This document shows positions 5,358-48,060 of a stretch of DNA of 64,000 bases, in pieces. The notes below the pieces were generated by a model. That model was not told the origin of the DNA. It searched no databases and worked only from the letters and a program-made list of their open reading frames with translations. The DNA is from Hyphomicrobium denitrificans 1NES1 (lineage in GTDB: Bacteria; Pseudomonadota; Alphaproteobacteria; Rhizobiales; Hyphomicrobiaceae): NCBI RefSeq assembly GCF_000230975.2, contig NC_021172.1, positions 744,001 through 808,000 on the forward strand, given 5' to 3'. How positions within the stretch are numbered: position 1 is the first letter of the stretch; each line of letters opens with the position of its first letter. The position numbers were made by a program, and so were the translations under genes.

Positions 5358-7465
5358 GCGGCCTTCTCCTTAGCCAATCCGAGCTGTTGTCTCGCCGCGG
5401 TAAGCACCGCCTCCCGCGTGAAGCCGAATTTCTTCATTAGATCTTTGATCGGCGCGGAGGCGCCAAAGGTATGCATGCCGATCCTCGCACCGCCCGGGCC
5501 GACATAACGATCCCAACCGATCACCGATCCAGCCTCGACGGACACGCGCGCTTTGATTTCGGGCGGCAGCACGCTGTCGCGATAAGCCTGATCCTGCTGT
5601 TCGAACAATTCCCACGACGGCATGCTGACAAGACGAGCCGCGACACCCTCTTTGTTCAGTGCCTCGTAGGCGTCAGCGCAAAGCGCAACTTCGCTGCCGG
5701 TGCCGATCAGGATCACTGCCGGTTTCCCGCGTTTGGCATCCGCCATGACGTAGGCGCCGCGAGCAACGCCGGCGGCAGAGGCGTAGATCGTGCGGTCGAA
5801 GGTGGTGAGAGGCTGCCGGGTTAGTATGAGGCATGCCGGCTGATGCTTCAGCCCGACGACGACCCGCCAAGCCTCGACAACTTCGTTGGCGTCGGCCGGT
5901 CGGAGCGTAATGAGATCCGGAATGCTTCGCAGCGCGACGAGTTGCTCGACCGGTTGGTGCGTCGGACCATCTTCGCCGAGACCAATTGAATCGTGCGTGA
6001 AGATATAAATGACTGGCAGTTCCATCAGCGCGCCGAGGCGGATGGGCGCCTTCATGTAATCCGAAAAGTTGAGAAAGCTCGAGCCGTACGCACGGATATT
6101 GGACAGTGCGAGCCCGTTTAGAATCGTTCCCATCGCGTGTTCGCGAATTCCGAAATGCAGATTGCGACCGCCGTACTTGCCGGCCTCGAAGTCTCCAGCG
6201 GCTTCGATTGTAAGGCGCGTCTTGGTCGAAGGTGAAAGATCGGCTGAGCCGCCGATAAGTGAGGGACAATGCCGCGCGATGGCGTTCTGGACCTTGCTGG
6301 AGGAATCGCGCGTCGCGAGACCTTTCGGGTCAGCAGCGAAGCTTGGCAGATTGGCGTCCCATCCGTCGGGGAGTTCGCGCTTCTGCAACCGCTCGATTTC
6401 TCTGCTGAGCTTGGGGTATTTGGATTTGTAGGCCTTAATAAGTTCCGACCAGCCCTTTTGTAGACGCCGTCCGCGTTCGCCGATGCTGGCGTTGAAGTGC
6501 TGACGCACACCATCGGGGACGAGAAACTCGGCATCTTCCGGCCAGCCATAGGCGCGCTTCGCCAGACGAATTTCTTCCACACCAAGTGGCTCGCCATGTG
6601 CCGCGTTGGTATCCTGCTTATGGGGTGCGCCATAGCCGATATGGCTGTCGACGATGATCAAGGTCGGAACGTCGTGTGAGCGCCGGAAGGTTTCGATCGC
6701 GTCTGCGATCCGCTCGGTGTCGTTGGCATCACCGACGCGATGCACGTTCCAGCCATAGGCAAGGAAGCGCGCCGCAACGTCGTCGCTGAAGGCAAGATCC
6801 GTATGGCCTTCGATCGTGACGCGATTGCTGTCGTAAATCCAGCAGAGGTTCCCGAGCATGAGGTGGCCTGCGATCGAGGCAGCTTCGCTCGTGACGCCTT
6901 CCATCATGTCGCCGTCACCGCAGAAGGCATAAACGTCGTAGTTGAACACCTCGAAGTCAGGCTTATTGAAGTGCTTCGCCAGCCAACGCTCTGCGATCGC
7001 CATGCCGACGCTCATCCCACAGCCCTGACCCAAAGGCCCGGTCGTCGCCTCGATACCCGTTGTGCGACGATACTCAGGATGTCCGGGACATTTACTGTCT
7101 AACTGGCGGAAGCGTTTGATGTCGCCGATGGTAACCGCGAGCTCGCCGGAACGTACCTGCTCGCCATTATTGGGATTCTTGACGCCGGTGAGATGCAGCA
7201 TCGAATAGAGCAGCATCGACGCATGTCCATTGGACAGCACGAAGCGGTCGCGATTTGGCCAAGACGCGTCATCCGGATCAAAGCGCAGAAAGCGTTGCCA
7301 TAATGTGTAAATGACGGGCGCCAAGGCCATAGGGGTGCCGGGGTGGCCGGATTCGGCCTGCTGCACCGCATCCATCGACAATGTACGGATGGTGTTGATG
7401 CACCGTTCGTCGATAGATCGATCGCCAGATGTTGGCCGCGTATTCCTATCTGTGCCGCTACTCAT
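5354..7465 (-). CDS. tkt: Transketolase
   Basis: Thiamine-diphosphate enzyme that moves two-carbon units between ketose and aldose phosphates. At 703 residues it is full length. The ThDP motif GDGDMMEGVTSEA and the DSNRVTIEG segment are clear, as are the central GHPGTPMALAP and the pyrimidine-domain HDSIGLGEDGPTHQP motif. It is the first gene of the operon and its stop overlaps the start of tal-pgi. The ribosome binding site is weak. In a methylotroph it could serve sugar interconversion in general; nothing here marks it as a dihydroxyacetone synthase. Confidence 0.96.
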   Translation of the reverse strand: MSSGTDRNTRPTSGDRSIDERCINTIRTLSMDAVQQAESGHPGTPMALAPVIYTLWQRFLRFDPDDASWPNRDRFVLSNGHASMLLYSMLHLTGVKNPNNGEQVRSGELAVTIGDIKRFRQLDSKCPGHPEYRRTTGIEATTGPLGQGCGMSVGMAIAERWLAKHFNKPDFEVFNYDVYAFCGDGDMMEGVTSEAASIAGHLMLGNLCWIYDSNRVTIEGHTDLAFSDDVAARFLAYGWNVHRVGDANDTERIADAIETFRRSHDVPTLIIVDSHIGYGAPHKQDTNAAHGEPLGVEEIRLAKRAYGWPEDAEFLVPDGVRQHFNASIGERGRRLQKGWSELIKAYKSKYPKLSREIERLQKRELPDGWDANLPSFAADPKGLATRDSSSKVQNAIARHCPSLIGGSADLSPSTKTRLTIEAAGDFEAGKYGGRNLHFGIREHAMGTILNGLALSNIRAYGSSFLNFSDYMKAPIRLGALMELPVIYIFTHDSIGLGEDGPTHQPVEQLVALRSIPDLITLRPADANEVVEAWRVVVGLKHQPACLILTRQPLTTFDRTIYASAAGVARGAYVMADAKRGKPAVILIGTGSEVALCADAYEALNKEGVAARLVSMPSWELFEQQDQAYRDSVLPPEIKARVSVEAGSVIGWDRYVGPGGARIGMHTFGASAPIKDLMKKFGFTREAVLTAARQQLGLAKEKAA

Positions 7466-7838
7466 GACTACGACCCGCGTTTTTAAAATCCCGGCGGTCT
7501 AGTCGGCTGGCTCGTCGCCTTCTTCGTAATGGTGAAAAGCAGTCGGCCTGATATCTCTCCGTCGATCTCGAGAGTCAGTTGGCGCTGATGTTGTGCAAAT
7601 ACCAGCGTCAGGGAAAGTGAATAAGGATTAAGGTTGTCCGTTTGCAGGGCCATCTTTTCGCAGCGCCGCTATGAAAAACGGACACGCGGCAAATTCGTTC
7701 CCATCTTACAAGTTACAGGCGCCGAAGCCAGCCTTCGGTTGCACTGTCGTTTGGATCATAATCCTATGCGGAATCGTCGCTGCTAGACTGAGAGACCGGA
7801 CAATTTCACCGTCGATATTGTCTGAAAGGGCCTCGCGA
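7466..7838. promoter_or_regulatory. Intergenic region between divergent tkt operon and glucosidase genes
   Basis: A 373-base gap between two divergently transcribed operons, so it must hold promoters for both. I see no unambiguous -35/-10 pair or operator. An in-frame upstream extension of the glucosidase gene back to 7671 exists, with a hydrophobic stretch, but it is not typical of the family and I leave it out. Confidence 0.5.
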
Positions 7839-10001
7839 ATGGTATTCAAGGTTCAAGTCGGGCCAGCACTCATCGCGATCCATCAGGGACAGACGGTATT
7901 GGTCACCGATCCTGACGGGCAGGTGAAATTGCCAAGCAAACACGGAATGTATTTCCGTGACACCAGGGTCATCAGCGCTTGGGCGATTTACGCGAACGGA
8001 GAACCGTGGGACCTGCTGAACGGCGGCGCCATCTCCGCTCATGCGGCGCGCATCTACCAGACGAACCACGCCTTCATGAGCGAGGATGGGGCGATCCCGG
8101 CACGCTCGCTGGGCTTGCTGATAGGCCGCCACGTTGAAGGAGGGATGCACGAGGATATCGACGTCACGAACAACGGCCGAACGGTAGTTCGCTTCAATCT
8201 TGAAATTGTAATCCGCGCCGATTTTGCCGACATCTTCGAGGTCAAGAGCGATGCGATCGTGCGACGGGGTTGCATCACGACATCGTGGTCCGGCAAACGG
8301 CAGATGCTTCGCGTGACCTATCGCAACAAGGACTTCTGCCGGGAGGTCGTTGTCCATGCGGGGAAAGGCGACGGTGGTCCGGCGTTGAGTGCGAATGGGC
8401 GGCTCAGCTTCGAGATCGCATTGAAGGCCGGGGAGACTTGGCATCGCTGTCTGATTTATGAACTTGCGGATGGCAAGAAACGCGTTCAAGCGCCGGGGAA
8501 GTGCATAGATTCCAGCGCAATGACGCGCCACGCCGGAGAGATCAGCAAATGGCAGCGAACCGTTCTGAAAATTACGACCAGCAACGAGGAGTTCTATCGC
8601 TGCTACAATCAGGGCGTCCTCGACATGGCTGCGCTTCGGCTGCTGCTGAAGGGAACCGACCGCATGGTGTTTGTTCCCGCCGCCGGGCTGCCCTGGTTCG
8701 TGGCTCTCTTCGGTCGTGATACGCTGATCGCGTCGTTGCAGACAATGATCGTCTACCCGGAATTCGCTGCCGGTGCGCTGGAGGTGCTGGGCCAGTATCA
8801 GGCGACGGAGCACGACGACTACAGAGACGCCGAACCGGGGAAGATACTGCACGAGCTTCGATACGGCGAGCTGGCGCATTTCAAATTGATCCCGCATACG
8901 CCGTACTACGGCACCGCGGATGCGACGCCGTTGTATCTGGTAGCGCTTCACGCAGCGTGGCGAGCCACGGGCGACCGTGAGCTGATCGAGCGGCAACTGC
9001 CCAATGCCGAGGCCTGCCTGACTTGGATCGAGAAGTACGGCGATCGCGACGGCGACGGGTTTCAAGAATACCAAACTCGCTCGGAGGCTGGCTATGAGAA
9101 CATGTCTTGGAAGGATTCTGGAGATGCGGTGATGTATCCTGATGGGACGCCGGTATCCGGACCAAAGGCATTGTGTGAATTGCAAGGTTATGTCTACGAC
9201 GCCTGGCTACGTATGGCCGAGATTTACGATGAACTCGGCAACAAACGGCGCGCCAACGCCCTGCGCATAAAGGCGGCGGAGCTATTCAAGAAGTTCAACG
9301 ACGCATTCTGGGACGAGGGCTCGGGCTTCTATGCCTATGCGCTGGACGGCCAAAAGAAGAAGGTAATGTCGGTGGCGTCCAATGTCGGACAGTGTTTGTG
9401 GTCCGGCATAATTGAGCCGAGACGCGCCGGGATCGTCATAAAGCGTCTGATGCGGAAAGATATGTGGAGTGGCTGGGGCATACGCACGCTCTCGGCGGAT
9501 CATCCCTCATTTAATCCGTATAACTATCAGACCGGAGCTGTATGGCCGCATGACAACTCGCTTATTGCATTAGGCATGCGTCGCTATGGGTTTGCATCGG
9601 AGGCGGCGATGGTGGCGCGCGATATCAGCGGAGCGGCGAGGCATTTTCTGTTGAACCAGTTGCCGGAGTTGTATGCTGGGCTGCAGCGCGACGGCGCGAG
9701 CTTTCCCGTGCAATATCTCGGCGCCAACGTGCCGCAAGCGTGGGCAGCGGGGGCCCCATTCATGCTTCTCCAGGCGATGCTGGGGCTGCAGCAGGATGCG
9801 CCGCGTGGCAAATTGTACGTCGATCCCGCGCTTCCTGACTGGTTACCCGATGTGACGCTGATCGATCTGCGGCTGGGGCGGGCGCGCTTTGATATCCGCT
9901 TCTGGCGAGACGGTAAGGAAACGTTATTCAAGGTGACGAAGGGGAAGCGAAACGCTGTTGAGCGGATGAGACATCGCGATGTCTGGAAGCGTGACCAGTA
10001 G
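7839..10001 (+). CDS. Amylo-alpha-1,6-glucosidase (glycogen debranching family)
   Basis: Predicted to hydrolyse alpha-1,6 branch points in glycogen-like glucans. The protein has about 720 residues. The N-terminal beta-sandwich begins with the family pattern around VTDPDGQV and GMYFRDTR, followed by a linker and an (alpha/alpha)6 barrel with LPWFVALFGRDTLIAS and YQTGAVWPHDNSLIA. I chose the ATG at 7839 (AAAGGG upstream, family-like N-terminus) over an upstream in-frame ATG at 7671. The next gene starts 85 bases downstream on the same strand, so the two probably act together in storage-glucan turnover. Some members of this family act on other glycosides, so the substrate is inferred. Confidence 0.88.
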   Translation: MVFKVQVGPALIAIHQGQTVLVTDPDGQVKLPSKHGMYFRDTRVISAWAIYANGEPWDLLNGGAISAHAARIYQTNHAFMSEDGAIPARSLGLLIGRHVEGGMHEDIDVTNNGRTVVRFNLEIVIRADFADIFEVKSDAIVRRGCITTSWSGKRQMLRVTYRNKDFCREVVVHAGKGDGGPALSANGRLSFEIALKAGETWHRCLIYELADGKKRVQAPGKCIDSSAMTRHAGEISKWQRTVLKITTSNEEFYRCYNQGVLDMAALRLLLKGTDRMVFVPAAGLPWFVALFGRDTLIASLQTMIVYPEFAAGALEVLGQYQATEHDDYRDAEPGKILHELRYGELAHFKLIPHTPYYGTADATPLYLVALHAAWRATGDRELIERQLPNAEACLTWIEKYGDRDGDGFQEYQTRSEAGYENMSWKDSGDAVMYPDGTPVSGPKALCELQGYVYDAWLRMAEIYDELGNKRRANALRIKAAELFKKFNDAFWDEGSGFYAYALDGQKKKVMSVASNVGQCLWSGIIEPRRAGIVIKRLMRKDMWSGWGIRTLSADHPSFNPYNYQTGAVWPHDNSLIALGMRRYGFASEAAMVARDISGAARHFLLNQLPELYAGLQRDGASFPVQYLGANVPQAWAAGAPFMLLQAMLGLQQDAPRGKLYVDPALPDWLPDVTLIDLRLGRARFDIRFWRDGKETLFKVTKGKRNAVERMRHRDVWKRDQ

Positions 10002-16588: not shown

Positions 16589-16740
16589 GTCATCCACCCT
16601 CTCAGATGGGCGCCTCTCGTTGGGGAGAGGTGTCCCGACGCCCTAGTGGCGGAATGGCGTTAGTTCGTCAATTCATCGAAAGTTGCAGAATATGCGCGGA
16701 TGCTGCCTTGAACCATTTGAATAGCGAACCCTTTTCAGGT

Positions 16741-28016: not shown

Positions 28017-30302
28017 ATGATGCTTGTTGCCTTACAGTGTTCAACAAGCTTCGCCAGGGCAGTGCGGGCCAGCAATTTGCGCACTTATTTACAATACGGA
28101 GCGGCGCTTCTGGTCGCCGCTGTATTAATAGCGATTGCCGTGATGCCGTCGGCCTCGTTTCTGGTCGGCGATTGGCGGCGCGATATGGAGGTTCGCTCCA
28201 AGCTAATCTTTAACTCGATTCAAGATCAAGTCGCACGGCAGTTGGCAAATGGAAATGATGCCGCGCTCGCTCGATTTTTCGAACGCCTGACCGGCGATGA
28301 GAAACTCCTAGCGCTCGGCTTCTGCGATTCAAACAGCGAGCTTCGCGATGTGACGAAATTCATGCCCGCAGCAATAACGTGCGAGAAGCTGGCGCGTGCT
28401 GAGACGCCGAGCTTCTCGACGTTGACGAGCGGTGGACGCAATATCTTCGTGGCGTCGTTTCCGATTTCCGTGAAAGACACGAGCGGTCACGTCGTGATCT
28501 TGCATGATCTTTCCTACATCGAGCAACGCTCCGCACAAGCACGGTACTACTGGGCGCTTGCTGTTGCTGCGATCGCGATCGGGCTCGGCATTCTGGGCAC
28601 GTTCCTCATTTCAAACCTTATCCGGCGCTGGCGCAATCTGGTGCGCGAGTCGATCAAAGAAGCGCGGATGGGCACGCTTGCGGACGCCTCAGGTGAAGCG
28701 ATCTCGGTCCTCGGGCCGGAACTCCGTGGGCTGCTGCGAGAGTTGCGGTCGGAACAGACGGCGGGTTCGGCCATCCAAGTCGATTGGTCTCCGGAAACTC
28801 TTCATCTGTTGCTTGAAAAGGAATTGCCGGAAACGGAAGTCATCGTCGTCTCCAACCGCGAGCCCTACATCCACAACCGCATTAACGGCGAGACCGTGCT
28901 GCAGATTCCGGCGAGCGGCCTCGTTGCGGCTCTGGAACCCGTTATGCGGGCGTGCGGCGGAACGTGGATCGCGCACGGCAGCGGCTCGGCCGACCGCGAA
29001 ACCGTCGATGCCAACGACAGAGTCGCAGTGCCGCCTGCTGCTCCAGCTTACGCTCTGCGGCGGGTCTGGCTCTCGGAGGAGGAACAGAACGGCTACTACT
29101 ATGGCTTTGCGAACGAGGGACTATGGCCGCTCTGCCATATTTCGTTTGTGAGGCCGACGTTTCGGGAGGGCGACTGGCGAACCTATGAAAACGTCAACGC
29201 GCGTTTCGCGGACGCCATTGCAGAAGAATCGAAGGGACGGGACCCGATCGTTCTCGTCCAGGATTATCATTTCGCACTTCTGCCGAGGCTCCTGCGCAAG
29301 CGGCTGCCGCGCGCGACCATCCTGATGTTCTGGCACATTCCGTGGCCGAACGCCGAGACGTTCAGTATTTGTCCGTGGAAGGAAGACATCATCGACGGCC
29401 TGCTCGGAAGCGATGTTTTAGGATTCCATACGCAATTCCACTGCAACAATTTCATGGAAACCGTCGATCGCTTCATCGAGAGCCGCATCGATCGCGAGCG
29501 GGCGTCCGTCACGCTTGGCGGACATGAGACTATTGTGCGGCCCTATCCTATTTCCATTGAATGGCCGCCGGCTGCACTCGCGTCGCAGAAGCCTGTTGCA
29601 GAGTGCCGTAAGGCGGTGCGCGAGCGCTTCGACATTGGCCAGGACGCGATGCTTGGTGTCGGGGTCGAGCGGTTCGACTATACGAAAGGCGTTCTCGACC
29701 GGTTGCGCGGCGTCGATGAGCTGTTGACGCGTCATTCCGAATGGAAGAACCGCTTTGTTTTCATTCAAGCGGCGGCGCCAACGCGGAGCAAGCTCGAGAC
29801 GTACCAGGGGCTACAGGAAGAAGCTCTGGCTCTCGCCGCAGAGATCAACGAGAAGCATGGCGGTAAACCGATCAGGCTGGTTATCCGTCACCATGAGCCC
29901 GATGAAGTGTTCGAACTCTTCCGCGCCTCTGACGTCTGCGTCGTCAGCAGCCTGCATGACGGCATGAATCTCGTTGCCAAGGAATTCGTCGCGGCGCGGG
30001 ACGACGAGCAGGGTGTTCTCATTCTCTCGCATTTCGCGGGAGCCTCACGCGAACTAGCGGAAGCTTTGATCGTTAACCCTTATGACCCGCACGGCTTTGG
30101 TGAAGCCATGAACGAAGCGCTGACGATGCCGCGCGACGAACAACGTGCGCGGATGCGGCTCATGCGGGCGTTGGTGCGTGAGCGCAATGTCTACAGGTGG
30201 GCCGGACAGATGCTACTCGACGCGAGCCAGCTTAGGCGGCGTCAGCGCGTATTGGACCTGATTGATCGGCGAGGAGCTGCTTTGACGGCTGCACGGCGTT
30301 AG
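28017..30302 (+). CDS. otsA: Membrane-anchored trehalose-6-phosphate synthase with sensor-like N-terminus
   Basis: A 761-residue fusion. Residues 1-270 form a two-helix membrane module (helices near 27-49 and 177-199) enclosing a periplasmic loop of about 125 residues, followed by a HAMP-like linker. Residues from about 274 are a GT20 trehalose-6-phosphate synthase ([56 protein letters not shown]), making trehalose-6-P from UDP-glucose and glucose-6-P. No otsB phosphatase is next to it. Ordinary OtsA is soluble and about 470 residues, so the N-terminal half is the odd part and suggests activity controlled by an external signal. Confidence 0.88.
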
Positions 30303-30931
30303 AGCGATGGCGAGTGCCCGCGCAGATCACCGCCAAACCCTGGACCACGAATATCGAGCGCCAACCAATGTCCTTCATCGTGGCCGACGGGATTCGGATT
30401 GTCAGAATGTTCGCGCCAAACGGATTTCGGACAATCAAGCGGCACCCCACCGCTGGATCATTGACGCGCGGACAACCTGGTGGCTGCTTATTGTTCGCGG
30501 CCAAAGCCATGCGAGCCTGTCTCGCGGGCCTTCTAGACATGGCGCTCCGCGAATACAAGCAATGCATGGCGCACGACGAGGAGATAGCCATTCCCGACGG
30601 CTTGCCGCAAGAGCTCCTCGGCCTGCTACGCCACGGTCGCGACCTCGCGCTCGACCGCGCCAGTGTCGTCCACGAGGCCATCGCAGTCACGTCAACCGCC
30701 TGCCCATCGACAAGGTGCCGGAGAAGTACCACCGCTTCCACAAAGACCGCAAGGAAACCCACACCGCGCGTGTTTGAAGCGCTGTAGTGCGCATTCCCCC
30801 CACCCCCCAAGCGAGACGACAGCCGAGCGCAGCCCGCCCCAGAAACAGCGAGCGCGAAGCGCGACCATGTTTCGTCGGCGGGTTTGTCGGAGCCCCTGGA
30901 GCGAAGCGGAACCCGAAGGGCGAGACGAGGA
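30303..30931. other. Left flank of the accessory island, possible broken small gene
   Basis: Between otsA and the first long inverted repeat. A plus-strand frame near 30540-30690 (YKQCMAHDEEIAIPDGLPQELLGLLRHGRDLALDRA) looks protein-like and seems to continue in another frame as VNRLPIDKVPEKYHRFHKDRK, so it may be a frameshifted small gene. I do not recognise it. Base composition changes here to GC-rich direct and inverted repeats. Confidence 0.35.
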
Positions 30932-31003
30932 GCATCGGACGCGCGGGATTTCGTGTGTTCGTTAGCCCCACTGGACTAACGCGACGCACCGCGCGTCCGA
31001 TGC
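30932..31003. repeat. Long inverted repeat with nested hairpin
   Basis: Perfect 15-bp arms GCATCGGACGCGCGG (30932-30946) and CCGCGCGTCCGATGC (30989-31003), with an inner 5-bp hairpin GTTAG/CTAAC (30961-30965, 30976-30980). It can form a cruciform. It shares the core ATCGGACGCG with the repeat at 31329. Could be a plasmid resolution, transfer or partition site; function not shown. Confidence 0.75.
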
Positions 31004-31328
31004 CCCGCAGTCGGGGGGGCGCCCGGCTATGCCGGCCGACCTCGTGCCGACAGCCGAGCCCGCGATCGCGGCTCCACCTGCGCGAAAGCAAGCGCTCTGT
31101 TTGGCCAGCACTGGAGAGCACACCAAACGCGGGCGAGTGCCGCCAGTTCCGTCGTTAGTGTGGTGCTACGCAAGCTTGCACACACTCGACGGAATGGCGG
31201 CACGAGGTCGGGCGGCAGCCCGACAAAGGGGGTGGGGGGAAATGCGTTGAATTGCAGTGCCTTTTGTTTCGCGTGCCCTCTGCAGCGCCCTACAAACGCG
31301 CGTAGGGGTGTGTGTAGGGGTGCAAAGC
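31004..31328. other. GC-rich spacer between the two inverted repeats
   Basis: No gene recognised. Contains short direct repeats such as GTAGGGGTG (two copies near 31302-31321). The sequence has the feel of a plasmid non-coding region. Confidence 0.4.
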
Positions 31329-31372
31329 CTATCGGACGCGTTCGATACCGCGTATCGCGACGTGTCCGATAG
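31329..31372. repeat. Second inverted repeat sharing the ATCGGAC core
   Basis: CTATCGGAC (31329-31337) pairs with GTCCGATAG (31364-31372), and pairing continues inward through CGATAC/GTATCG around a 3-base centre, with a few mismatches. About 44 bp in all. The shared ATCGGAC/GTCCGAT ends link it to the repeat at 30932, 0.4 kb away. Confidence 0.7.
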
Positions 31373-31421
31373 GGGAGAAGGTAGAGTCGGTTCCTCGTGC
31401 CTTGGATGTTCGTCTGACGGA

Positions 31422-31994
31422 TCAGGACGCGAGATCGGCGATGATATTGGTGAGGTCGATTTCGTCACCACCGAAGCTTGCGATCATCGCTTGAAGCACC
31501 GCATCCGGCTCAAGTTTGTCGAGATCGAGCGGGTGTCCGGCTTGGTGGGCGAGTAGCGTCAGGAAGGTGAGTTGGGTTCGGCCGTTGCCCTCCCGGAAGG
31601 GATGGATCGCGTTGAGCTCGGCGAGGAAGTGAGCGGCAGCAGCTGCAAACTCACTTGTGCCGAGGCCGCAAAGGTAGCGCTGCTGCTTTAATCCGGCAAA
31701 GACACGAGTCATCTCCGCGGCGATGTTTTCCGGATAGCAAAACACGCTCTGGCCCTTGGCAATCCGAACGGTCCGGTATTTTCCAGCCCACGGAAAGACG
31801 TCCTGAAAGAGGTGAAAGTGGATCGCGCGGTAGTGCGTGGCTGAGAAACGGCCGTTGGGTAAAGGCTCTTCGGATCGCGCGAAGGTCATCGCCGTCTCGA
31901 AGCGTTCGAGCGCCTCCTTAGAGGTGAGACCCGCTTTATTCTTGAGAACAGAGCTGCCTGAATGGCAGTAGGGATCGCGTTCTGCCTCGTACAT
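31422..31994 (-). CDS. Fic domain protein (probable toxin)
   Basis: A 190-residue Fic protein. The catalytic motif HPFREGNGRTQ, near residue 130, is complete, so it should transfer AMP or a related group to a target protein. The family-typical FHLFQDVFPWAGKYRTVRI precedes it. It begins 9 bases after a small gene of antitoxin type, and the two very probably form a toxin-antitoxin pair of the class often carried on plasmids. No inhibitory helix is evident within the Fic protein itself, which fits a separate antitoxin. Confidence 0.9.
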   Translation of the reverse strand: MYEAERDPYCHSGSSVLKNKAGLTSKEALERFETAMTFARSEEPLPNGRFSATHYRAIHFHLFQDVFPWAGKYRTVRIAKGQSVFCYPENIAAEMTRVFAGLKQQRYLCGLGTSEFAAAAAHFLAELNAIHPFREGNGRTQLTFLTLLAHQAGHPLDLDKLEPDAVLQAMIASFGGDEIDLTNIIADLAS

Positions 31995-32003
31995 GAGCGA
32001 GGC

Positions 32004-32225
32004 TTATTTCTTCCCGAACTTCTGGGCAAGCTCGGAGCGACGCTTCGCTGGGTTCATGCCTTCAGTTCGGGCAAGCTCTTTGTGCATGGCTTGCGTGAGC
32101 GTGATTCCTTCCACGGAGCTTATGCTACTGAAGGCGCCCCGGCCGAGCGTGAATTGGCCCGTGCGCGCATCGCGCTTAAGGCTGCCGCTAGATTTCTTGC
32201 TGCACTGGGAGACCGTCTTTGCCAT
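32004..32225 (-). CDS. Antitoxin partner of Fic protein
   Basis: About 73 residues from the ATG at 32225 (MAKTVSQ). It is basic, with RDARTGQFTLGRGAFSSISSVEGITLT and a C-terminal AKRRSELAQKFGKK; the FxxISxVEGI pattern is typical of small proteins encoded just before Fic toxins in alphaproteobacteria. Position, strand and size support an antitoxin. In-frame extension to 32330 lacks family similarity. Confidence 0.7.
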   Translation of the reverse strand: MAKTVSQCSKKSSGSLKRDARTGQFTLGRGAFSSISSVEGITLTQAMHKELARTEGMNPAKRRSELAQKFGKK

Positions 32226-32450
32226 GGACGGAATATAGCACGCGGGGCGTTGATCTGCACGTGGCACTTGCACGCGAATGAGGCGAAAGTAGCAAAATAG
32301 CCGTGTCGCAGAATATCTGTTTTGCGACACGCAAAGCTCATATTGTCAAGCAGGCCACCTTCATTTGACAGATATGGGTGAATGTACTCCTGAAATGCAA
32401 CGCGCCGCCGCTCTGTTGAGACACTTTGTAACCCGTTTCGTTTGATCGGT

Positions 32451-32744
32451 TCAGGCTGTGCCCTTTTTGTTGTTTTTCGTTGTGGGAATTCCAGTGCCCG
32501 TAGACCCCCGCGAAAAACTTTTTGAAATCTTTCTCTGATTGCCCCCGCCGATCGTACGGCCGTCACGTCTGGCGGGCTCGGCCGTCTGACTCTTCGCCGG
32601 CTGAGACGAATGAGAAATGTCTCGGGAGCCCAGATGGGCCGCATCGAGAGCGATAATCTCGAATGGGATGCGCTCGTCGATAATCACTCGGCGCAAGAAG
32701 AGCTCCATGGCCTCGGACATGTTGAGGCCGATCCCTTTTGCCAT
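32451..32744 (-). pseudogene. Truncated RelB/DinJ-type antitoxin
   Basis: The first 35 residues (GIGLNMSEAMELFLRRVIIDERIPFEI) match the middle of RelB/DinJ antitoxins. The usual N-terminal strand that contacts DNA (about 20 residues) is missing upstream of the ATG; the frame upstream has no start codon next to the good GGAGGAGG at about 32779. The tail is basic and unlike the family. No RelE toxin follows. Probably a broken antitoxin remnant. Confidence 0.55.
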
Positions 32745-32849
32745 AGGGTAGGCGCAAAGGTGATAGTACTTCCCTCCTCCCCTACCCAGTCAGCCGCGCC
32801 TTCAATTCCTTCCTTGATGCATTTGAGTTTTGTATTTCGCTTTAAGCGT

Positions 32850-32905
32850 CCCTATTTTTTAGGTCTGTAAATATAGATATGGATATAAATACTATTATAG
32901 TGTCG
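32850..32905. other. AT-rich stretch
   Basis: A marked AT-rich segment (TTTTTTAGGTCTGTAAATAT, then alternating AT to about 32900) in otherwise GC-rich DNA, right next to the iteron-like array. It is a natural candidate for a DNA unwinding element of a plasmid-type origin. Confidence 0.5.
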
Positions 32906-32933
32906 CGTTGTTTTACGTATCGCGTAACGTTTC

Positions 32934-33050
32934 TTTACAAGAGGCGTCGCAATTATTTACGAGGGCGTCGGGAATCGCGACGGCGTGTAAGGACTTTTGA
33001 CAGGGCGTAAAGCTTCGCGACAGGGTGTCCAAAATCTTTACAGGGTGGCG
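32934..33050. repeat. Iteron-like array, candidate plasmid replication origin
   Basis: Six degenerate direct repeats of the form TTTACAGGGCGTCG begin near 32934, 32956, 32975, 32995, 33014 and 33035, a period of about 19-22 bp (two helical turns). Examples are TTTACAAGAGGCGTCG, TTTACGAGGGCGTCG and TCTTTACAGGGTGGCG. The array abuts an AT-rich stretch, the usual layout of an iteron origin. The SPARTA operon starts 0.3 kb to the right. No typical Rep_3 or RepABC initiator is adjacent; the helix-turn-helix protein at 36.6 kb is the nearest candidate. Confidence 0.6.
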
Positions 33051-33375
33051 TAGAGCGCGGCTGGTACCTTGGATCTGCGTTTCAGCGAGATGCCGGAGAT
33101 CAGAAATGGGCACCGGGGAATTATCAGTCATTGGGTCGGCTAGCACATATTTGATGGACAGCGTTGCTCGCCGAGCGCAGCCTGCCTCCGGTCATCGTCC
33201 AGAATAGTTACCCCGCAATCGCCGTGCCGCTACGTATGCAGCACCTCACCGACGGCCGTCGCGTGGCCGGCACTGAGGGGGCAATCAGCCTCAAATAAAG
33301 CAATGCACGACACGCGGGATTCCGCACTGCTTGCGTAACACCCCCCAGGCTATACTCGAGGCGGAGGCGAATCAC

Positions 33376-34787
33376 GTGGCAGACCCCAACGCGATAACAG
33401 CGGCACAACGGCAGACGATTCTGATTACGCATGCAAATGCGGAAGACAATGACGTCGCGCGCTGGCTGGCGGCACGGCTGGTGATGGCGGGCTATCACAC
33501 GTGGGTCGATCTGCGGTCATTGAAGGGCGGCCAAGATTTCTGGGACGAGATCGAAAACGAACTCCGGCATCGTGTCATCAAGCAGATCGTTCTGATCTCG
33601 CCCCACATTCGCAAACCTGGTGTCAAGAAAGAACTCGCGCTCGGCGACGCTATCGGCCGTCAGCTAAACGATCCGGATTTCATGATCCCGATCCGTATCG
33701 CGCCAGTTCCCCACTCGGAATTTCCGCCCGAACTCCTGCGGCGCAATGCCATCGAAGCTCAGCCCAGCTGGTCAGCTTGCCTCCCGCTTCTGCTTGAGAC
33801 CTTGCAGGATGCCGGCGTGCCTCGATCGACCTCCGGCCGCGGCGATCTCGTCGCCAACATTGTTGCCGCGCAGGAAGCTGCCCGGCGGGCTATTGTCCGG
33901 TCGCCAGAGAAACTCGTGTCGAATTGGTTCGATCTTGCACCTGGCAGGCCCAATCTCAGGATGTTTGGAAGCAAAGGCACGCCGGGCCAGTTGGACGCTT
34001 GGCTGGACACTGTGCGGCTACCCTTCATTCGCCACAGCGGGCTCGTGGCCACATTCTGCGATCCTGCAACCTTTGCAGCAGCGGGCAGCCGCGGCCCCAC
34101 GCTGGTTGACCGGTTCAATCTTCCTTTCGACAGCCTAGTTCGGGGCCGCGATGATACGCCCTTCGTCAATCGCGCAGACGCCCGCCGCAACGTCACCAAT
34201 CTTGTCCGCCAGCACTGGGATCTGGCGCTCGAACGACGGGGCCTCAAAATATTCGAGTTCGCCGCCGGCAAGACGGGTTGGTACTTTCCTGACGGCCTGA
34301 TCGACGGCTCCGTCACCGCCGACCTCGGCGATGGGTTGCGCGTCGACCGCATCCTCAGCGGCAAGTTCAAGGAGCGGCGTTGGCATCTCTGTCTTGTCGC
34401 CCGAACGCGGCTGTGGCCAGATCCGCTGTCCGCGTCCATGCCAACATCGCTCTCTCCGAGGACGGCAAGGTCCTCGCAGGCGAGGCCACGCACGGGCTGC
34501 GCCGCCGACTGACGCGCTCCTGGTGGAACAACAAGTGGCGCGATCTGCTCCTCGCTGGCATGCATTGGCTTGCAGAAGGACAGCCGGTGCTATCGATGGC
34601 TGCTGGGGCCGAGATGTTCGGCGTCTCAACCTTGCCCCGTCGAGCGGAAATTCCCGTCTCCTTTCAGGCAAGCGAAGGACGTGACGCGGAGGAAGATGCG
34701 GCAGGAGAGATCCTTCTGTCATCCGAACTCGACGACGAGGTGGGCGAGGAGTTGTCCACTCCCGACGAGGAGCAGAACGACGCATGA
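33376..34787 (+). pseudogene. TIR-APAZ protein of a SPARTA system, one-base frameshift
   Basis: The reconstructed product is about 470 residues. From the GTG at 33376 (GGCGGAGG upstream) residues 14-150 are a TIR domain (ILITHANAEDNDVARWLAARL; YHTWVDLRSLKGGQDFWDEIENEL with the expected catalytic Glu; IVLISPHIRKPGVKKELALG). The rest is an APAZ domain that in known systems binds the Argonaute. The first frame runs to 34512 but loses sense after DPLS near 34430. The conserved end (RVHANIALSEDGKVLAGEA; SWWNNKWRDLLLAGMHWLA) continues in another frame to 34787, consistent with loss of one C in TCC(C)GCG. It is a genuine inactivation or a base-call error. In SPARTA the TIR hydrolyses NAD(P). Confidence 0.88.
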
Positions 34788-36319
34788 CACTCGAGGCAAT
34801 CCACCTGCCGGAACCGTTGCTCGCATTTGCACACGGCCAGTCGCTAGAAGGGCCCAAGGATGGGCTGTTCCTGTTCGGCCCGGTCGAGGATGCGAGTGGC
34901 CGCAATCAGGTCCGTATCGGTATCATCGGAACGCCGGAGGGCGTTGGGCTTGCGCGGCTCTGGCTTAGGCGCCTGTCGGGCTTCATCCTCGGCAAGACCG
35001 ACAAGAGCGGCAATCCGGTATCATGGGCACCCTCGTGGCCCGGCTTCGCCGAGTGTTTCGGGGTCTCCCTTCCACTGCAAGGTACCGCCGAGCTAAAGCT
35101 CGATCGCGTCGCCGTCGAGGCCGCGATCAAGAAGGGGAATCGCGCCGATGCCGTTAGGTCGACGGTGATCATGTTCGCAGCCGCCATTCGCAATCATGTC
35201 CGCACCGAGGAGCGGCAACCCGACCTGTGGTTAGTCGTGGTGCCCGATGTTGTCTTCCGGTACGGCCGACCGCAGGTCGGCCTCCCGCCCAAGGCAGAGC
35301 GCACACGATCGACGATCATCTCGGCCAAGGCTGCGAAACGGGCGCTCATCGGCGGCGACCTGTTTCCCGAGATCGTCGACGAAGCAGAGACCTATCTTTT
35401 TTCGAGCAATTTCCATCACCAGCTCAAGGCTGAACTGCTGCAGGACAAGATAGCACTCCAACTCGCCCTCGAGAGCACGCTGGAGGATCGGGCGATCACC
35501 AACGCCAAGGCAGAGCGCCGTCGTGGGCTGCTGGACGAGGCAACCGTCGCCTGGAACTTCGCCACGACGCTGTACTTTAAGATGGACGCCAAGCCGTGGG
35601 CCCTGGCCGAGGTGCGACCCGGCGTTTGCTACGTTGGCTTGGTTTTCAAGAAGAACCCCTCTCCAACTGCCGCAGGCGAGACATGCTGCGCAGCGCAGAT
35701 GTTCCTAAATTCGGGCGACGGTCTCGTGTTCCGCGGTGCCCTCGGACCCTGGTACTCCGATAAGACGCGCGAGTATCACCTCTCGCTGAAGGCGGCCAAG
35801 TCTCTCATGATCTCCGTGGTCAACGGCTACAAGGCCAAACACGGACGCTACCCCGTTCAGTTGTTCATCCATGGCAGGCACACGTTCAACGTCGATGAGT
35901 GGCGTGGCTTCGCCTCCGCCGTCACTGATGAGACCCAGTTAATCGGCGTGCGCATCCAGAGCCAGGATGACATGCGCCTATTCCGCCCGCAGGCATCCAC
36001 CCCTGTCCTGCGCGGGACGGCTATTCTCGTGACCAAGCGCACGGGGCTCCTGTGGACCCTCGGGTATGTCCCGCGCCTTGCTAGCTACCAGGGCTTCGAA
36101 ACACCCAAGCCGCTATCCGTCGAGGTCACGCATGGTGATGTCGATCTGAAGCAGGTGCTCGCTGACGTACTTGCCTTGACCAAGCTCAACTATAACGCCT
36201 GCGATTTTGCGAGCGGATTGCCCGTGACGCTGAAGTTCGCCGATCGTGTCGGCGAAATTCTCATGGCCTCCCCTCGGACCGTCTCGGCACCACCTCTTCC
36301 TTTCCGCTTCTATATTTGA
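34784..36319 (+). CDS. Short prokaryotic Argonaute (MID-PIWI) of a SPARTA system
   Basis: A 511-residue short Argonaute, full length. The MID-domain guide-binding region is FHHQLKAELLQDKIALQ (residues 210-226). The PIWI domain spans about 255-511 (WNFATTLYFKMDAKPWALAEV; CYVGLVFKK; GALGPWYSDKTREYHL; LFIHGRHTFNVDEW). The first catalytic Asp of active PIWI is absent in VCYVGLVF, as in short Argonautes that only bind nucleic acid. The ATG overlaps the TIR-APAZ stop by four bases (ATGA), the usual operon layout. The known role is guide-directed sensing of invader DNA that switches on the TIR NADase and kills or arrests the infected cell. Confidence 0.93.
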   Translation: MTLEAIHLPEPLLAFAHGQSLEGPKDGLFLFGPVEDASGRNQVRIGIIGTPEGVGLARLWLRRLSGFILGKTDKSGNPVSWAPSWPGFAECFGVSLPLQGTAELKLDRVAVEAAIKKGNRADAVRSTVIMFAAAIRNHVRTEERQPDLWLVVVPDVVFRYGRPQVGLPPKAERTRSTIISAKAAKRALIGGDLFPEIVDEAETYLFSSNFHHQLKAELLQDKIALQLALESTLEDRAITNAKAERRRGLLDEATVAWNFATTLYFKMDAKPWALAEVRPGVCYVGLVFKKNPSPTAAGETCCAAQMFLNSGDGLVFRGALGPWYSDKTREYHLSLKAAKSLMISVVNGYKAKHGRYPVQLFIHGRHTFNVDEWRGFASAVTDETQLIGVRIQSQDDMRLFRPQASTPVLRGTAILVTKRTGLLWTLGYVPRLASYQGFETPKPLSVEVTHGDVDLKQVLADVLALTKLNYNACDFASGLPVTLKFADRVGEILMASPRTVSAPPLPFRFYI

Positions 36320-36592
36320 TGAGCGGGTCTTTTCGTAGAGCCGATGGGAATCGCACCTGTGTCGCTGAGTTTGGATGTCTGCTTGTTGGCAGTATCCGGA
36401 CGACGCGTCGATCGACTTCTGAGCCTACCAAGCATCCGTGTCCCACTTCCGGTTTCTCCGCGTCACATCTTTGACTCTCAGGACAAGGACAATTGACTCC
36501 CCTTCGGCTCGGGAGGTGATCCTTACGCATTCTGCGGGGCTAGTTCTTCGGAATCGCATGAGCGTCCTCCCCCGTAAAGCCGACACGCGCTC

Positions 36593-36994
36593 TTAGTCGC
36601 CGAACACGAGCGCCTTCGTGACTTCAACGGTGTCGCGCCATTTCTGTGTCGAACGGAGGTAGCCGGTCTCCGGCTGGAGCTCGACAAGGCCCACCTCGCG
36701 CAGGCGCTTGATCATCCCGTGGATGGACTGGCGAGAGAAACCGAGGCTCTGGCCGAGCTGCTCCTTGGAGGCGAAGCACCAGCCAGGCACGGGGCTGTGC
36801 GTGCTCGAAAGCTTATGGACGCTGTCGGCCAGGCAGTATTCGTGGATCGAGATGCCGAGCTTCTTGCGTGCGGAGTGCAGGATCAGCGTGTAGCGGGCCT
36901 CTTCGGTCTGTAGACGCTTGCGCTTCTGCTGCGCGGCCTGGCGGCCTTCCTCGATCCTCTGTGCCTGAGAACCTAAATTGACGCGATTGAAAGC
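36593..36994 (-). CDS. Helix-turn-helix replication-type protein
   Basis: About 133 residues from the ATG at 36994. After a basic, coiled N-terminus comes a winged-helix domain (YTLILHSARKKLGISIHEYCLADSVHKLS; GWCFASKEQLGQSLGFSRQSIHGMIKRLREVGLVE; TGYLRSTQKW), the pattern found in plasmid and phage replication-initiator-like proteins. It lies between SPARTA and a coiled-coil gene on the same strand as the latter. It might bind the iteron or palindrome arrays nearby; this is inference. Confidence 0.65.
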   Translation of the reverse strand, partial: AFNRVNLGSQAQRIEEGRQAAQQKRKRLQTEEARYTLILHSARKKLGISIHEYCLADSVHKLSSTHSPVPGWCFASKEQLGQSLGFSRQSIHGMIKRLREVGLVELQPETGYLRSTQKWRDTVEVTKALVFGD

Positions 36995-37066
36995 CATAGC
37001 GCTTGCCCGCATTATAGCGCGGCTAGAGCGCGTCAGTGGGTTATCAACAGTAGATGAAGGAATGCC

Positions 37067-38529
<1,463 letters not shown>

Positions 38530-38530
<1 letters not shown>

Positions 38531-39018
38531 TCATACCCGACTTCGGTCCCTGGGTTGACGGTCTGAAGAGTACATCGATTGAAAAACGTGCGCGCGTATA
38601 TCTCGACGACGGGCCGCAACCGATTTTGGATCGGGAACTGCCGGCGGATGTCTCGCTCCACACGACCGCACTTGCCGGCGGACCACATCGGCTGACGATC
38701 GTGGCGCGCGGTGAGAGTGGAGGCGAAGGCGTCAAGGAAGTTCCGTTTGTCGTTCACAACGGGCCCGGGATCATCATCTCGGGGCTGCGGCCGCATTCCA
38801 CACGGCGCGGCAATATCCGCTTCACAGTCGACGCTTTCAGCGCTGATGATCCGTTTGATCCACGCCGTGCCTAGGCGCGCTCGTCAATTCCGGTTTGGGT
38901 GATGTCCCTGTTCGTGGTCGCCTGGGCCGTCTGGTACGCAGCTCGCATGCTGGATGTGCCGGCCGAGTTCGCGCATACGCCGACCTACAGCAGCCAGACC
39001 ATAGGATCTCCGCGTTGA
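38530..39018 (+). pseudogene. Remnant of membrane-anchored cytochrome-type protein with in-frame amber
   Basis: Directly after the terminase piece the frame reads FIPDFGPWVDGLKS, then an Ig-like segment (ARVYLDDGPQPILDRELPADV; VPFVVHNGPGIIISGLRP; VDAFSADDPFDPRRA), a TAG at 38872-38874, and without frame change a membrane helix (IPVWVMSLFVVAWAVWYAA) and VPAEFAHTPTYS. In relatives, as I recall, this pattern is followed by a c-type heme domain; here it ends at TGA 39016-39018 with no CxxCH. The 5' end is missing. It lies just upstream of xoxF, so it may once have been an electron acceptor; this is inference. Confidence 0.6.
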
Positions 39019-39310: not shown

Positions 39311-41134
39311 ATGCGAATATCCACCGTAAGCTGCGCACTGGCCTTACTGGCCTACGCCACGACGCCAGCTCTCGCCAACGAGAGCGTGACAGAGGCCGTT
39401 AAGAATCCAAAAAACTGGGCGATGCAGCAAGGCGACTACGCCAACCATCGCTATTCCACACTCGATCAGATCAACACGTCGAATGTCGGAAAAATGCAGA
39501 CGGCATGGAGCTTTTCAACCGGCGTTCTCAGAGGTCACGAAGGATCGCCGCTCGTCATCGGCAACATGATGTACCTGACGACGCCATTCCCCAACGTCGT
39601 CTTTGCACTCGACCTCGATAAGAACCAACAGATCGTCTGGAAATATACGCCAAAGCAGGATCCTTCCGTTATTCCCGTCATGTGCTGTGATACAGTGAAC
39701 CGTGGCGTGCAGTATGCGGACGGCAAGATCTTCCTCTATCAAGCGGACACGACGCTCGTCGCCCTCGATGCCAAGACAGGCAAGGAAATTTGGAAAGCCG
39801 TCAACGGTGATCCAAAGAAGGGCGAAACTGGTACGAGCGCGCCGCTCATCGTCAAGGACAAAGTGATTGTCGGCATTTCCGGTGCCGAGTTTGGTATCCG
39901 CGGGCGCCTGACGGCCTACAACATCTCGGACGGCAAGCTCGCCTGGACCGCCTACTCGACCGGTCCGGATCATGACATGCTTGTTGATCCGGAAAAGACG
40001 ATGTCGCTCGGGAAGCCGATCGGCAAGGACAGCTCGCTGAAGACCTGGAACGGGGACCAGTGGCGGATTGGCGGCGGCTCGACCTGGGGCTGGTATTCGT
40101 ACGATCCCGAGCTAAACCTGATCTATTACGGGACGGCAAATCCCGGAACCTGGAACTCGGTGCAGCGCGCGGGGCCGGACGGCAAGCCCATCGATCAGAA
40201 GTGGACGATGACGATCTTTGCCCGCGATCCTGACACGGGCGTGGCAAAGTGGGTATATCAGATGACGCCGTTCGACCAGTGGGACTACGATGGCGTCAAC
40301 GAGATGATCCTCGTGGATGGCCTCGACATCAAAGGTCAGAAGCATAATGCGCTCGTTCACTTCGATCGCAGCGGCATTGCCTACACACTGGACCGCAAGA
40401 CGGGCATCCCGCTGGTGGCGGAGAAGTTCGATCCGGTCGTCAACTGGACGACGGGTATCGATCTTGATCCGCAGAGTGCGACATATGGGCGGCCGAAGGT
40501 GGTTGACGCCAAATCGCCATTCCACAATGGCCAGGACGTGAACTCCAAGGACATCTGTCCAGCGGCCCTCGGCAGCAAAGACGAACAACCCGCTTCGTAT
40601 TCGCCATTAACGGGCCTCTTCTACGTGCCGACCAACCATGTGTGCATGGACTATGAGCCATTCAAAGTCTCGTATACGGCGGGACAGCCCTACGTCGGCG
40701 CAACATTGTCGATGTATCCGCCGAAGGGTGAAGAAGGCCACATGGGCAACTTCATTGCCTGGGACGCGAGCAAGGGCAAGATTGTCTGGTCGAAGCCCGA
40801 GAGGTTCTCGGTGTGGTCGGGCGCGCTCACGACGGCCGGCGGCATCGCCTGCTACGGCACGCTCGAAGGTTACTTCAAGTGCGTCGATCAGAAAGACGGC
40901 AAGGAATTGTACAAGTACAAGACGTCATCGGGCGTCATCGGCAACGTCTTCACCTACGAGCATAACGGCAAGCAGTACATCGGCGTCTTCTCGGGCGTCG
41001 GTGGTTGGGCCGGCATCGGCCTTGCGGCCGGGCTAACCAATCCAACAGACGGATTAGGTACGGTCGGCGGCTACTCAGCCTTAAGCAACTACACGGCTCT
41101 TGGCGGTTCGTTGACCGTCTGGTCGTTGCCATGA
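39311..41134 (+). CDS. xoxF: Lanthanide-type PQQ methanol dehydrogenase
   Basis: A periplasmic quinoprotein of 607 residues with a signal peptide ending near ALA/NE. It oxidises methanol (and formaldehyde) using PQQ. Features: adjacent Cys125-Cys126 (VMCCDT) that form the family's vicinal disulfide, metal ligands expected at Glu193 and Asn277 (GTANPGTWN), catalytic Asp325 and the extra Asp327 in WDYDGVNE. The second Asp marks XoxF and coordinates a lanthanide; calcium MxaF enzymes have Ala there. AAGGAG lies 7 bases upstream. Neither xoxG (cytochrome) nor xoxJ is adjacent, which is unusual. A strong terminator follows. Confidence 0.95.
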
Positions 41135-46884: not shown

Positions 46885-47304
46885 CATTTGTCATTCGAGC
46901 GAGGGTTCCAGCGGATTCTCGCTCAAATGTTCCAACGAGAACTCCTTGCTGTTTACCTACGCCGAAATCATAGCTGCTTGAAAACAAGTGAGGCCTCGTA
47001 ACCATGAGGCCTACCGCAGAATGTTTGGGAGCTAATGTGGTGGGCCGAGTCACTACAAACCGGAGCTTGCGAATTGAGCAATCCAAGCAGCTCAGCGTCG
47101 GTTTGACGTTGATTCACTCTTAAGCCAAGGCGCCGTTAGCCGCGCGTCTAAGCCGGCTCCGCAGAGAAAGCTGCCGAGGACGGGATGGGGCATAGTGCAT
47201 CACACACGGGCGATCGTCCCAATAGCTGACATCGGCATCAAGACAATCGGCGACGCAAGAGCGCCGCCGACGGCGTCCGGTCTTAGGGGCATGGCGTCAG
47301 AGGA
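46885..47304. other. Intergenic: hairpin and conserved integrase 3' flank
   Basis: AGGCCTC/GAGGCCT forms a small hairpin near 46991-47012 without T-tract. The right part (about 47236-47300) is the downstream flank shared with the other integrase copies, with a TCGGCGACGC/GCGCCGCCGA inverted repeat. Confidence 0.5.
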
Positions 47305-47927
47305 TCAGATATCGATCTTCTCGGCGATCTCAATCGCGTTGTCGACCTCGATGCCGAGATATCTGACTGTGCTTTCAATCTTGGAATGCCCAAGCAAGAG
47401 TTGGACAGCCCGAAGGTTTCCAGTCCGCCGGTAGATGAGCACCGCCTTTGTCCGGCGCAGCAAGTGCGTGCCGAACTTCGCTGGGTCCAGGCCGATGCTG
47501 GCGATCCACTCCAGCACCAAACGCGTACTGCCGCGTTGTAAGCCCGCCTCTGTCGCCACGACCAGCGACGAGGAACTGGCCCGGCTTGCGTCCGGTCAAG
47601 CGCAGATACTCGTCGATGGCCTGGCGTGTCTGATCGGTCAGCTCAAACCGTACCGGCCTGCCGGTTTTCTTCTGCCGGATGGTTGCGCGGTCCATCGAGT
47701 ATCCACTCGGCGCAACATCATCGACGCGGACGGCAACTACGTCACAGCCGCGAAGCTTGCTGTCGATCGCTAGGTTGAAGAGCGCGAGATCTCTCTTCTT
47801 CCCTCGATTTGCAGCTTGGTCCGGATCGACCAGACGTGGCTAGGCCGCAGGGGCGGCTTCACGCCGACGAGCTTGCCTTATTCCAAGGTACTCGGGTCAC
47901 TGTCTTTCGGGCATGTTCCTGTTCCAT
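47305..47927 (-). pseudogene. Tyrosine integrase copy 1, multiply frameshifted
   Basis: Corresponds along its whole length to the intact integrase at 62718-63350, including start (MEQEHA, with AAAAGGAG upstream) and end (EIAEKIDI). It has lost bases near 47877 (WNKGKL broken), 47801 (IEGKKRDL broken) and 47523 (QYARLVLEW broken), and HSLRR has become HLLRR. It cannot make a working recombinase. Confidence 0.93.
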
Positions 47928-48060
47928 GATTTGTCTCCTTTTTAGAGAGACAAACGAACATGCTCCGCGGCAGCACCTACGCCCGACGGCCGGATTCGGG
48001 CTAAAACTTCCGTAGCTTGGTTAGCGGCAGACGCTTTTGACCCATAGCAGACGTCGACGG

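Follow-up and report, generated by a model that had tools for sequence, protein, structure and literature searches.

We analyzed a 64,000-nucleotide (nt) stretch of the Hyphomicrobium denitrificans 1NES1 chromosome (NC_021172.1, positions 744,001–808,000; hereafter the window, to which coordinates refer unless another locus is named). The host genome is assembled as one contig and is 100% complete. Between positions 33376 and 36319 the window contains the genes of a SPARTA defence system: a TIR-APAZ effector that is spread over two reading frames, and a short Argonaute (Ago) in an intact frame. They lie in an island that also carries a Fic/DOC gene pair, a structured non-coding block, and genes for a helix-turn-helix (HTH) and a coiled-coil protein. 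To our knowledge, the original reports of SPARTA systems date from 2022. We propose, with a probability of roughly 0.7, that the operon is cargo of a decaying integrated mobile island and that it is probably non-functional here through a recent frameshift in its APAZ region.

The Argonaute can be assigned with confidence. A search of the PDB aligns its residues 4–511 to residues 3–507 of the SPARTA chains 8qlo, 8ifk, 8j8h, 8fex and 8j7s (expectation (E) values from 1e-115 to 9e-114), and the next solved prokaryotic Argonaute (pAgo), 9om4, follows at 3.6e-43. The pAgo_I model of PADLOC matches at 1e-189. The protein has no Pfam match, and the Piwi model PF02171 finds nothing in the whole genome, which we attribute to a limit of that model because the PADLOC and PDB matches are strong. 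Since the similarity to solved structures spans the full length, the fold is settled: the 511-residue MID-PIWI protein of a preliminary description of this locus is borne out far beyond chance, and its best matches are SPARTA Argonautes, not members of unrelated families. Reading along the alignment to 8ifk, four PIWI positions are occupied by Val287, Tyr331, Arg365 and Asp487. The 8ifk residues at these positions (Val284, Tyr328, Arg362 and Asn484) carry the same numbers as in the list published for Crenotalea SPARTA (PMC11156904). The DEDX catalytic tetrad is absent, and the PIWI domain is therefore non-catalytic. The first PIWI aspartate had previously been described as missing, and Val287 indeed takes its place; the last position, however, is an aspartate.

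The effector gene is broken. Its first part (piece 1) matches TIR_2 (PF13676, E = 1.3e-13) and the PADLOC model Aga_TIR-PNTD1-PNTD2 (E = 1.3e-115), and covers residues 2–334 of most SPARTA TIR-APAZ chains in the PDB (4–336 of 8qlo). The GTG at 33376, inside an open reading frame (ORF) listed from 33331, is a plausible start, since the codons that follow match the beginning of the relative P0121; the frame stops at 34512. Alignment of piece 1 with its closest relatives extends to codon 366 of the ORF (nt 34428); from nt 34428 it is taken up by another frame, which runs to 34787 (piece 2). The two frames overlap across 34428–34512. Piece 2 covers residues 337–429 of 8fex chain A (E = 1e-7), which places the break between residues 334 and 337 of the solved TIR-APAZ proteins. 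In the sequence as assembled, the two frames exclude an intact single gene from 33376 to 34787. Hidden Markov model and structure-sequence searches (Pfam, PADLOC and PDB) thus recover all of TIR, APAZ and MID-PIWI, and a TIR domain followed by APAZ, with an ATGA overlap between TIR-APAZ and Ago, had been reported before. Both domains and the overlap exist, but the domains do not share one frame, and the overlap belongs to the second frame alone.

The relatives inspected do not share the break. All 28 loci taken from genome contigs (28/28) have the two TIR-APAZ parts in a single open frame immediately upstream of Ago. These loci were fetched by Ago similarity from isolates and metagenome-assembled genomes, and many come from closely related Sphingomonas and are thus not independent; in one of them (L004) the TIR-APAZ frame is cut by the contig end. 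At the protein level, piece 1 matches 92/92 homologues and piece 2 matches 87/92. Among the matches listed, 39 of 40 homologues contain both pieces, at coordinates that adjoin or overlap slightly; P0133 (338 amino acids) is the exception. Among the papers listed by a literature search, none gave an account of a frameshifted TIR-APAZ, which is weak evidence. The gene order, with TIR-APAZ upstream of Ago and the second-frame ATGA overlap, is that of SPARTA, and the fusion of TIR to a complete APAZ in one protein is missing. On its sequence, we class the locus as a SPARTA operon copy that is frameshifted, not as an intact member.

Residues associated with the TIR NADase are largely retained. Glu-101 corresponds to the catalytic glutamate (Glu-77 of the solved protein) and is a glutamate in 88/92 relatives (four gaps); Trp-71 is conserved as well (tryptophan in 87/92, five gaps). 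The position of the catalytic Tyr-105 is His-128 here. Among the 92 relatives it is occupied by Phe (52), His (23), Tyr (13) or Asn (1), with three gaps, and the tyrosine is thus not fixed in this branch.

The domain limits reported for Crenotalea SPARTA (APAZ-N 167–280, L1 281–352 and L2 353–450, PMC11156904) imply that the in-frame product ends before the last part of APAZ-L1 and is devoid of all of APAZ-L2. Nucleic-acid contacts of TIR-APAZ have been located at His340 and Lys366 (PMC11156904). Maribacter SPARTA tolerates deletion of residues 418–452, and also of one APAZ helix (PMC10474274), but the loss found here, from about residue 335 onward, exceeds the 418–452 deletion. In intact SPARTA, guide-loaded Ago/APAZ binds target single-stranded DNA, tetramerizes via TIR and hydrolyzes NAD(P)+ (PMC10474274, PMC11156904). 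By analogy, the ancestor of the present system would probably have held Ago and APAZ in one complex loaded with a small guide RNA. The complex would have bound complementary single-stranded DNA of an invader and then tetramerized, with its TIR domains hydrolyzing NAD(P)+ and causing cell death. As encoded in the window, the in-frame product would leave the nucleic-acid-binding shell incomplete, and Ago translation would probably no longer be coupled to the end of TIR-APAZ. Because APAZ is truncated and TIR-APAZ translation ends 271 nt ahead of the Ago start, we expect no activity. Ago itself may still be translated, given a GAGGAG 11 nt ahead of its ATG. The SPARTA architecture proposed in the preliminary description therefore holds for sequence, gene order and key residues but not for a single TIR-APAZ frame, and its working immune operon is not supported, as TIR-APAZ is frameshifted in APAZ.

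We next weighed this interpretation against its alternatives, starting from substitution counts in which changes specific to the window are compared with changes specific to a sister protein, each with an outgroup. With P0121 as the sister, piece 1 shows 10 versus 8, 9 versus 7 and 6 versus 6 changes, and piece 2 shows 7 versus 5, 3 versus 7 and 5 versus 5 (three outgroups each). With P0122, the counts are 15 versus 15 and 13 versus 13 for piece 1; for piece 2 they are 7 versus 6 with P0126, and 7 versus 2 with P0127, which leans toward decay. Ago yields 17 versus 12, 11 versus 17 and 10 versus 14. There is no clear excess of substitutions in the window, and an old pseudogene is unsupported: the break is either recent or a sequencing or assembly error. 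These counts and the intact Ago frame speak against our proposal. The counts suit an error in an otherwise ordinary, functional SPARTA operon, as do the retained catalytic glutamate and tryptophan and the ATGA coupling to Ago kept in the second frame. We nevertheless consider such an error unlikely, because the same island has a second broken gene, that of the coiled protein, and probably a third, the terminase. Indel errors are not rampant either: there are long ORFs elsewhere in the window, a 607-residue pyrroloquinoline quinone (PQQ) dehydrogenase matches its relatives over the whole length with no stops, and no base run within about 30 nt of the break is longer than 3.

Alternatively, the split gene may still work, with the truncated TIR-APAZ, alone or together with a separately translated C-terminal piece, assembling with Ago. 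The truncated product retains TIR and most of APAZ-N/L1, TIR touches the Ago MID domain directly (PMC10474274, PMC11156904), loss of one APAZ helix is tolerated as noted above, and Ago has the GAGGAG ahead of its start. Such an assembly appears highly improbable to us, as APAZ has most of its contacts with PIWI and forms the channel for guide and target (PMC10474274, PMC11156904), and a split gene is found in 0/28 loci. We give still less credence to programmed ribosomal frameshifting as a means of joining the two TIR-APAZ frames: these overlap as such a site would require, but 28/28 inspected relatives use one frame, and by eye there is no X-XXY-YYZ slippery heptamer near 34428. A recent frameshift in a decaying island remains our preferred reading, on the strength of the broken coiled gene, the probably broken terminase and the matches of Ago and both TIR-APAZ pieces to solved SPARTA proteins.

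TIR-APAZ occurs once in the H. denitrificans genome and in 0 of 40 others searched (1/41). Ago relatives are present in 12/100 genomes searched, its own included; within the genus only its own copy is close, and two others share 30–31% identity. In PLSDB, Ago relatives (pAgos of any type) are found in 100 records, 76 of them covering at least 80% of the query, on plasmids predicted to be conjugative (52), non-mobilizable (44) or mobilizable (4). An annotated TIR protein lies under the Ago match in 5/20 PLSDB records among the matches listed. Four Sphingomonas/Sphingobium plasmids of 203–427 kb (NZ_AP017656.1, NZ_CP065669.1, NZ_CP065714.1 and NZ_CP061036.1) encode an Ago that is ∼70% identical, with an annotated TIR protein under the match, and nothing of window 30700–37700 aligned to them except the two SPARTA genes. 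As Ago relatives are common on plasmids, a plasmid carrying SPARTA would be unsurprising and not new.

Table 1. Genes and features of the SPARTA locus and the surrounding island (window coordinates).
Feature	Position	Strand	Evidence
Structured non-coding block, ∼590 nt	30785–31375		folding z, compensatory changes, sister copy and relatives
Fic/DOC protein, 190 residues	31422–31994	-	PF02661, E = 7.8e-20; 80% amino acid identity to sister copy
Small ORF adjoining Fic	32004–32330	-	53% amino acid identity to sister copy over residues 21–108
RelB antitoxin remnant, 97-residue ORF	32451–32744	-	PF04221, residues 4–48, E = 4.6e-5, 23.7 bits versus cut-off 22.4
TIR-APAZ piece 1: TIR, APAZ-N, most of APAZ-L1	33376–34512	+	PF13676, PADLOC, PDB
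TIR-APAZ piece 2, other frame: end of APAZ-L1, APAZ-L2, tail; ATGA overlap with Ago	34428–34787	+	PDB, relatives
Short prokaryotic Argonaute, MID-PIWI, 511 residues, catalytically inactive PIWI	34784–36319	+	PDB, PADLOC
Backbone winged-helix-type HTH protein, 139 residues	36593–37012	-	88% amino acid identity to sister copy
Backbone coiled-coil protein, frameshifted, N-terminally truncated	37067–37656	-	sister ORF intact
Phage terminase large-subunit fragment	37619–38558	+	phrog_38, E = 5.5e-50

The island around the operon has a sister copy (L040) located ∼116 kb further along the same chromosome (about 892,300–897,800). Window segments 30788–32351, 32797–33042 and 36584–37618 correspond to L040 5327–6891, 7201–7444 and 9604–10649 (79–85% nt identity), and both islands contain the structured block, the Fic pair, the HTH protein and the coiled protein. 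In the interval that separates the HTH gene from the Fic pair, the window carries SPARTA, whereas L040 carries a sulfide dehydrogenase-like pair (7798–9483; chromosome about 894,800–896,500). Its members are a flavoprotein resembling flavocytochrome c sulfide dehydrogenase (PF21706, E = 2.8e-35) and a cytochrome c-like ORF; the interval also holds a small ORF with a Cys-rich repeat. The coiled gene is an intact 246-residue ORF beside a tRNA-Gln in L040 (10088–10828), but in the window it lies in two frames, and the overlapping match contains stops. It is cut near 37619, where it abuts a fragment from the middle of a terminase, a probable deletion scar. The terminase is probably split into two frames as well, since Terminase_6C goes on weakly in a second one (E = 0.059). 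The small ORF next to Fic has no family match in domain and model searches; its position makes it the probable Fic antitoxin.

Two features of the backbone are reminiscent of replication modules. The HTH protein of the window has MarR_2 and RP-C matches below the Pfam cut-off, its sister matches PHROG replication-initiation and DnaD-like models weakly (E = 8.5e-5 to 3e-3), and for the HTH proteins of backbone relatives the matches to PHROG replication-initiation models reach E values as low as 6.5e-17. In addition, 10-bp GTCGCGAC-type repeats are found at 37316–37470 (four pattern matches in the window versus 0.10 expected), a region that corresponds to coding sequence in the intact sister copy, and at about L040 10348–10745, in or beside the coiled-protein coding sequence. 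They resemble iterons that lie inside a replication gene. The Fic pair, RelB remnant and iteron-like repeats of the preliminary description are thus all present.

The backbone extends beyond this chromosome. Coiled-protein relatives occur in 14/102 family genomes, and the window-type HTH occurs in the H. denitrificans genome alone among 22 of the genus. The 17 loci that we compared by tblastn, which comprise most but not all of the coiled-protein matches from the 102 family genomes, include 13 with coiled and HTH proteins, three with the coiled protein only and one with HTH only. A tRNA lies beside the coiled gene in L040 (Gln), L060 (Leu) and L061 (Lys), and the motif TCAATRACTTA occurs within 20 bases after each of the three (L040 10983, L060 4987, L061 8977). 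The other 14 of the 17 loci do not show this combination, which resembles an integration site. No direct repeats of the tRNA end were found at the other end of the sister islands. A search for an empty site likewise found none: the trehalose-phosphate-synthase-like neighbour is full-length in only 3/21 other genus members, and no close PQQ dehydrogenase relative adjoins it there among the matches listed. One of these three (G002) has a PQQ dehydrogenase paralogue of 51% identity ∼18 kb away on the same contig.

Searches of plasmid and viral sequences returned few matches. The HTH proteins of the window and sister copies and the coiled protein of the sister have no significant match in 72,556 plasmid records; one of the backbone-protein searches, run with an E cut-off of 1, returned two partial matches (E = 0.3 and 0.6). 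The L060 HTH protein matches only three plasmids, all from Candidatus Chlorohelix (34–41% identity), and the L060 coiled protein matches none. Viral contigs contain one weak relative of an HTH protein and no match for the window-type HTH. In L059, a ParB-methyltransferase, a DUF5681 protein and an intact terminase large subunit are encoded on the opposite side of the coiled gene. Given this terminase, the tRNA-adjacent islands and the near-empty plasmid searches, the evidence favours an island of mixed phage/plasmid character over a plasmid. A plasmid origin drew no support from direct matches of backbone proteins or block, none of which was significant apart from the three L060 HTH records. 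The setting had earlier been called plasmid-like, which fits the replication-initiation-type HTH gene and the iteron-like repeats but not the chromosomal sister copy, the tRNA-adjacent relatives and the terminase neighbours. Beyond the block, L061 encodes a type IV coupling-protein/HerA-like ATPase (ORF 5079–6434, PF10412, E = 1.2e-11) and an IS1595-type transposase (3808–4749).

The block shared by these islands is non-coding and strongly structured. Copies are found in L040 (5324–5921), L059 (8124–8526, partial), L060 (6650–7235) and L061 (6640–7160), and in these loci and the window it lies beyond the HTH gene. The window and sister blocks are 92.4% identical, compared with 74.3% for the neighbouring Fic gene, and their mismatches are even over codon phases (16, 13 and 16), unlike those in Fic (100, 17 and 30). 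The block folds far better than shuffled sequences on either strand (z = -8.5 and -11), both strands folding about equally, and two relative blocks behave likewise (z = -8.9 and -7.5). RNAalifold predicts 155 pairs from the five block sequences, 33 of which are changed on both sides (shuffled mean 12.7; 2–11 in slid versions), with 90.5% of cells paired. For the core hairpin region (four sequences) there are 12 such pairs, versus 5.4 in shuffled and 0–1 in slid alignments, with 97.7% paired; on the measure of further pair types, 10/500 shuffles reach the observed value. These structures were derived from the same four or five sequences on which covariation was scored, and helices 6, 8, 9, 11 and 20 pair in only 74–82% of cells.

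Few relatives of the block were found. Rfam at the gathering threshold reports only a serC leader outside the block and tRNAs for the window, L040, L059–L061 and L063, and at E up to 5 its sole match within 30300–33400 lies outside the block. A DNA search for the block finds 7/103 family genomes, three of them by stretches of 23–57 bases only. An RNA model of its core (R1) finds 2/102 family and 1/385 class genomes, own included, under strict filters with 8–32 candidates scored per genome, such that misses are possible. The block has no match in phage records and no significant one in plasmid records, and a block motif of 17 specified bases has no match in viral contigs. The distance between HTH gene and block is ∼0.3–0.6 kb in L059, L060, L061 and L063, and 3.7 and 5.2 kb in the two own-genome copies. 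These gap sizes suggest that the interval is a cargo slot.

We rate the odds as even that this island family is a new object as a whole: a chromosomal mobile backbone that combines a DNA-binding-like coiled protein, iteron-like repeats inside the gene for that protein, an HTH protein of replication type and a ∼590-nt ornate structured RNA or DNA of an undescribed family, whose own-genome copies hold the Fic pair and either SPARTA or the sulfide dehydrogenase-like pair in the slot between HTH gene and block. If so, the block would be one of the central parts of the element's life cycle, for example in copy control, as a replication origin or in packaging.

Elsewhere in the window, a PQQ-dependent methanol/ethanol-type dehydrogenase is encoded at 39311–41134. 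It has at least eight matches in the chromosome, and this number suggests that the host is a methylotroph. The serC leader RNA (RF00517, 65 bits) lies at 16589–16640 on the minus strand, and an 863-nt direct repeat of 80% identity is found at 47212–48052 and 62624–63481.

The SPARTA copy is ordinary in type; greater novelty lies in the block and in the two matching islands. For defence annotation our analysis brings a correction, since domain-scoring searches would record a SPARTA system here despite the out-of-frame effector gene. Provided that the break is genuine, the locus would capture the ongoing loss of a costly abortive-infection system from a mobile island. With both islands in a single chromosome, backbone and cargo can be set against each other in a natural comparison, and the block can be tested as a candidate new large RNA linked to mobile elements.

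Some of the ornate large bacterial RNAs GOLLD, ROOL and OLE are associated with mobile elements. Like the block, these RNAs (PMC12286853) are large, multi-branched, strongly folded and non-coding. The block differs from them in that it has no Rfam match at the gathering threshold, nor one inside it at E up to 5.

The SPARTA genes can be compared with the solved groups 8fex, 8ifk and 8qlo, which we take to be the Crenotalea and Maribacter systems. They share with these the gene order, the combination of TIR-APAZ with MID-PIWI, the catalytic glutamate and tryptophan of TIR and a non-catalytic PIWI domain. Among the residues named in the structural reports, the PIWI sensor-loop Trp320 corresponds to Trp323, and His207 and Lys211 of the 5′-end pocket correspond to His211 and Lys215. 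In contrast to the solved systems, TIR-APAZ is frameshifted, the catalytic tyrosine position is a histidine, the guide-contacting Tyr148 is replaced by Phe158, and the fourth PIWI position is an aspartate where the Crenotalea protein has Asn484.

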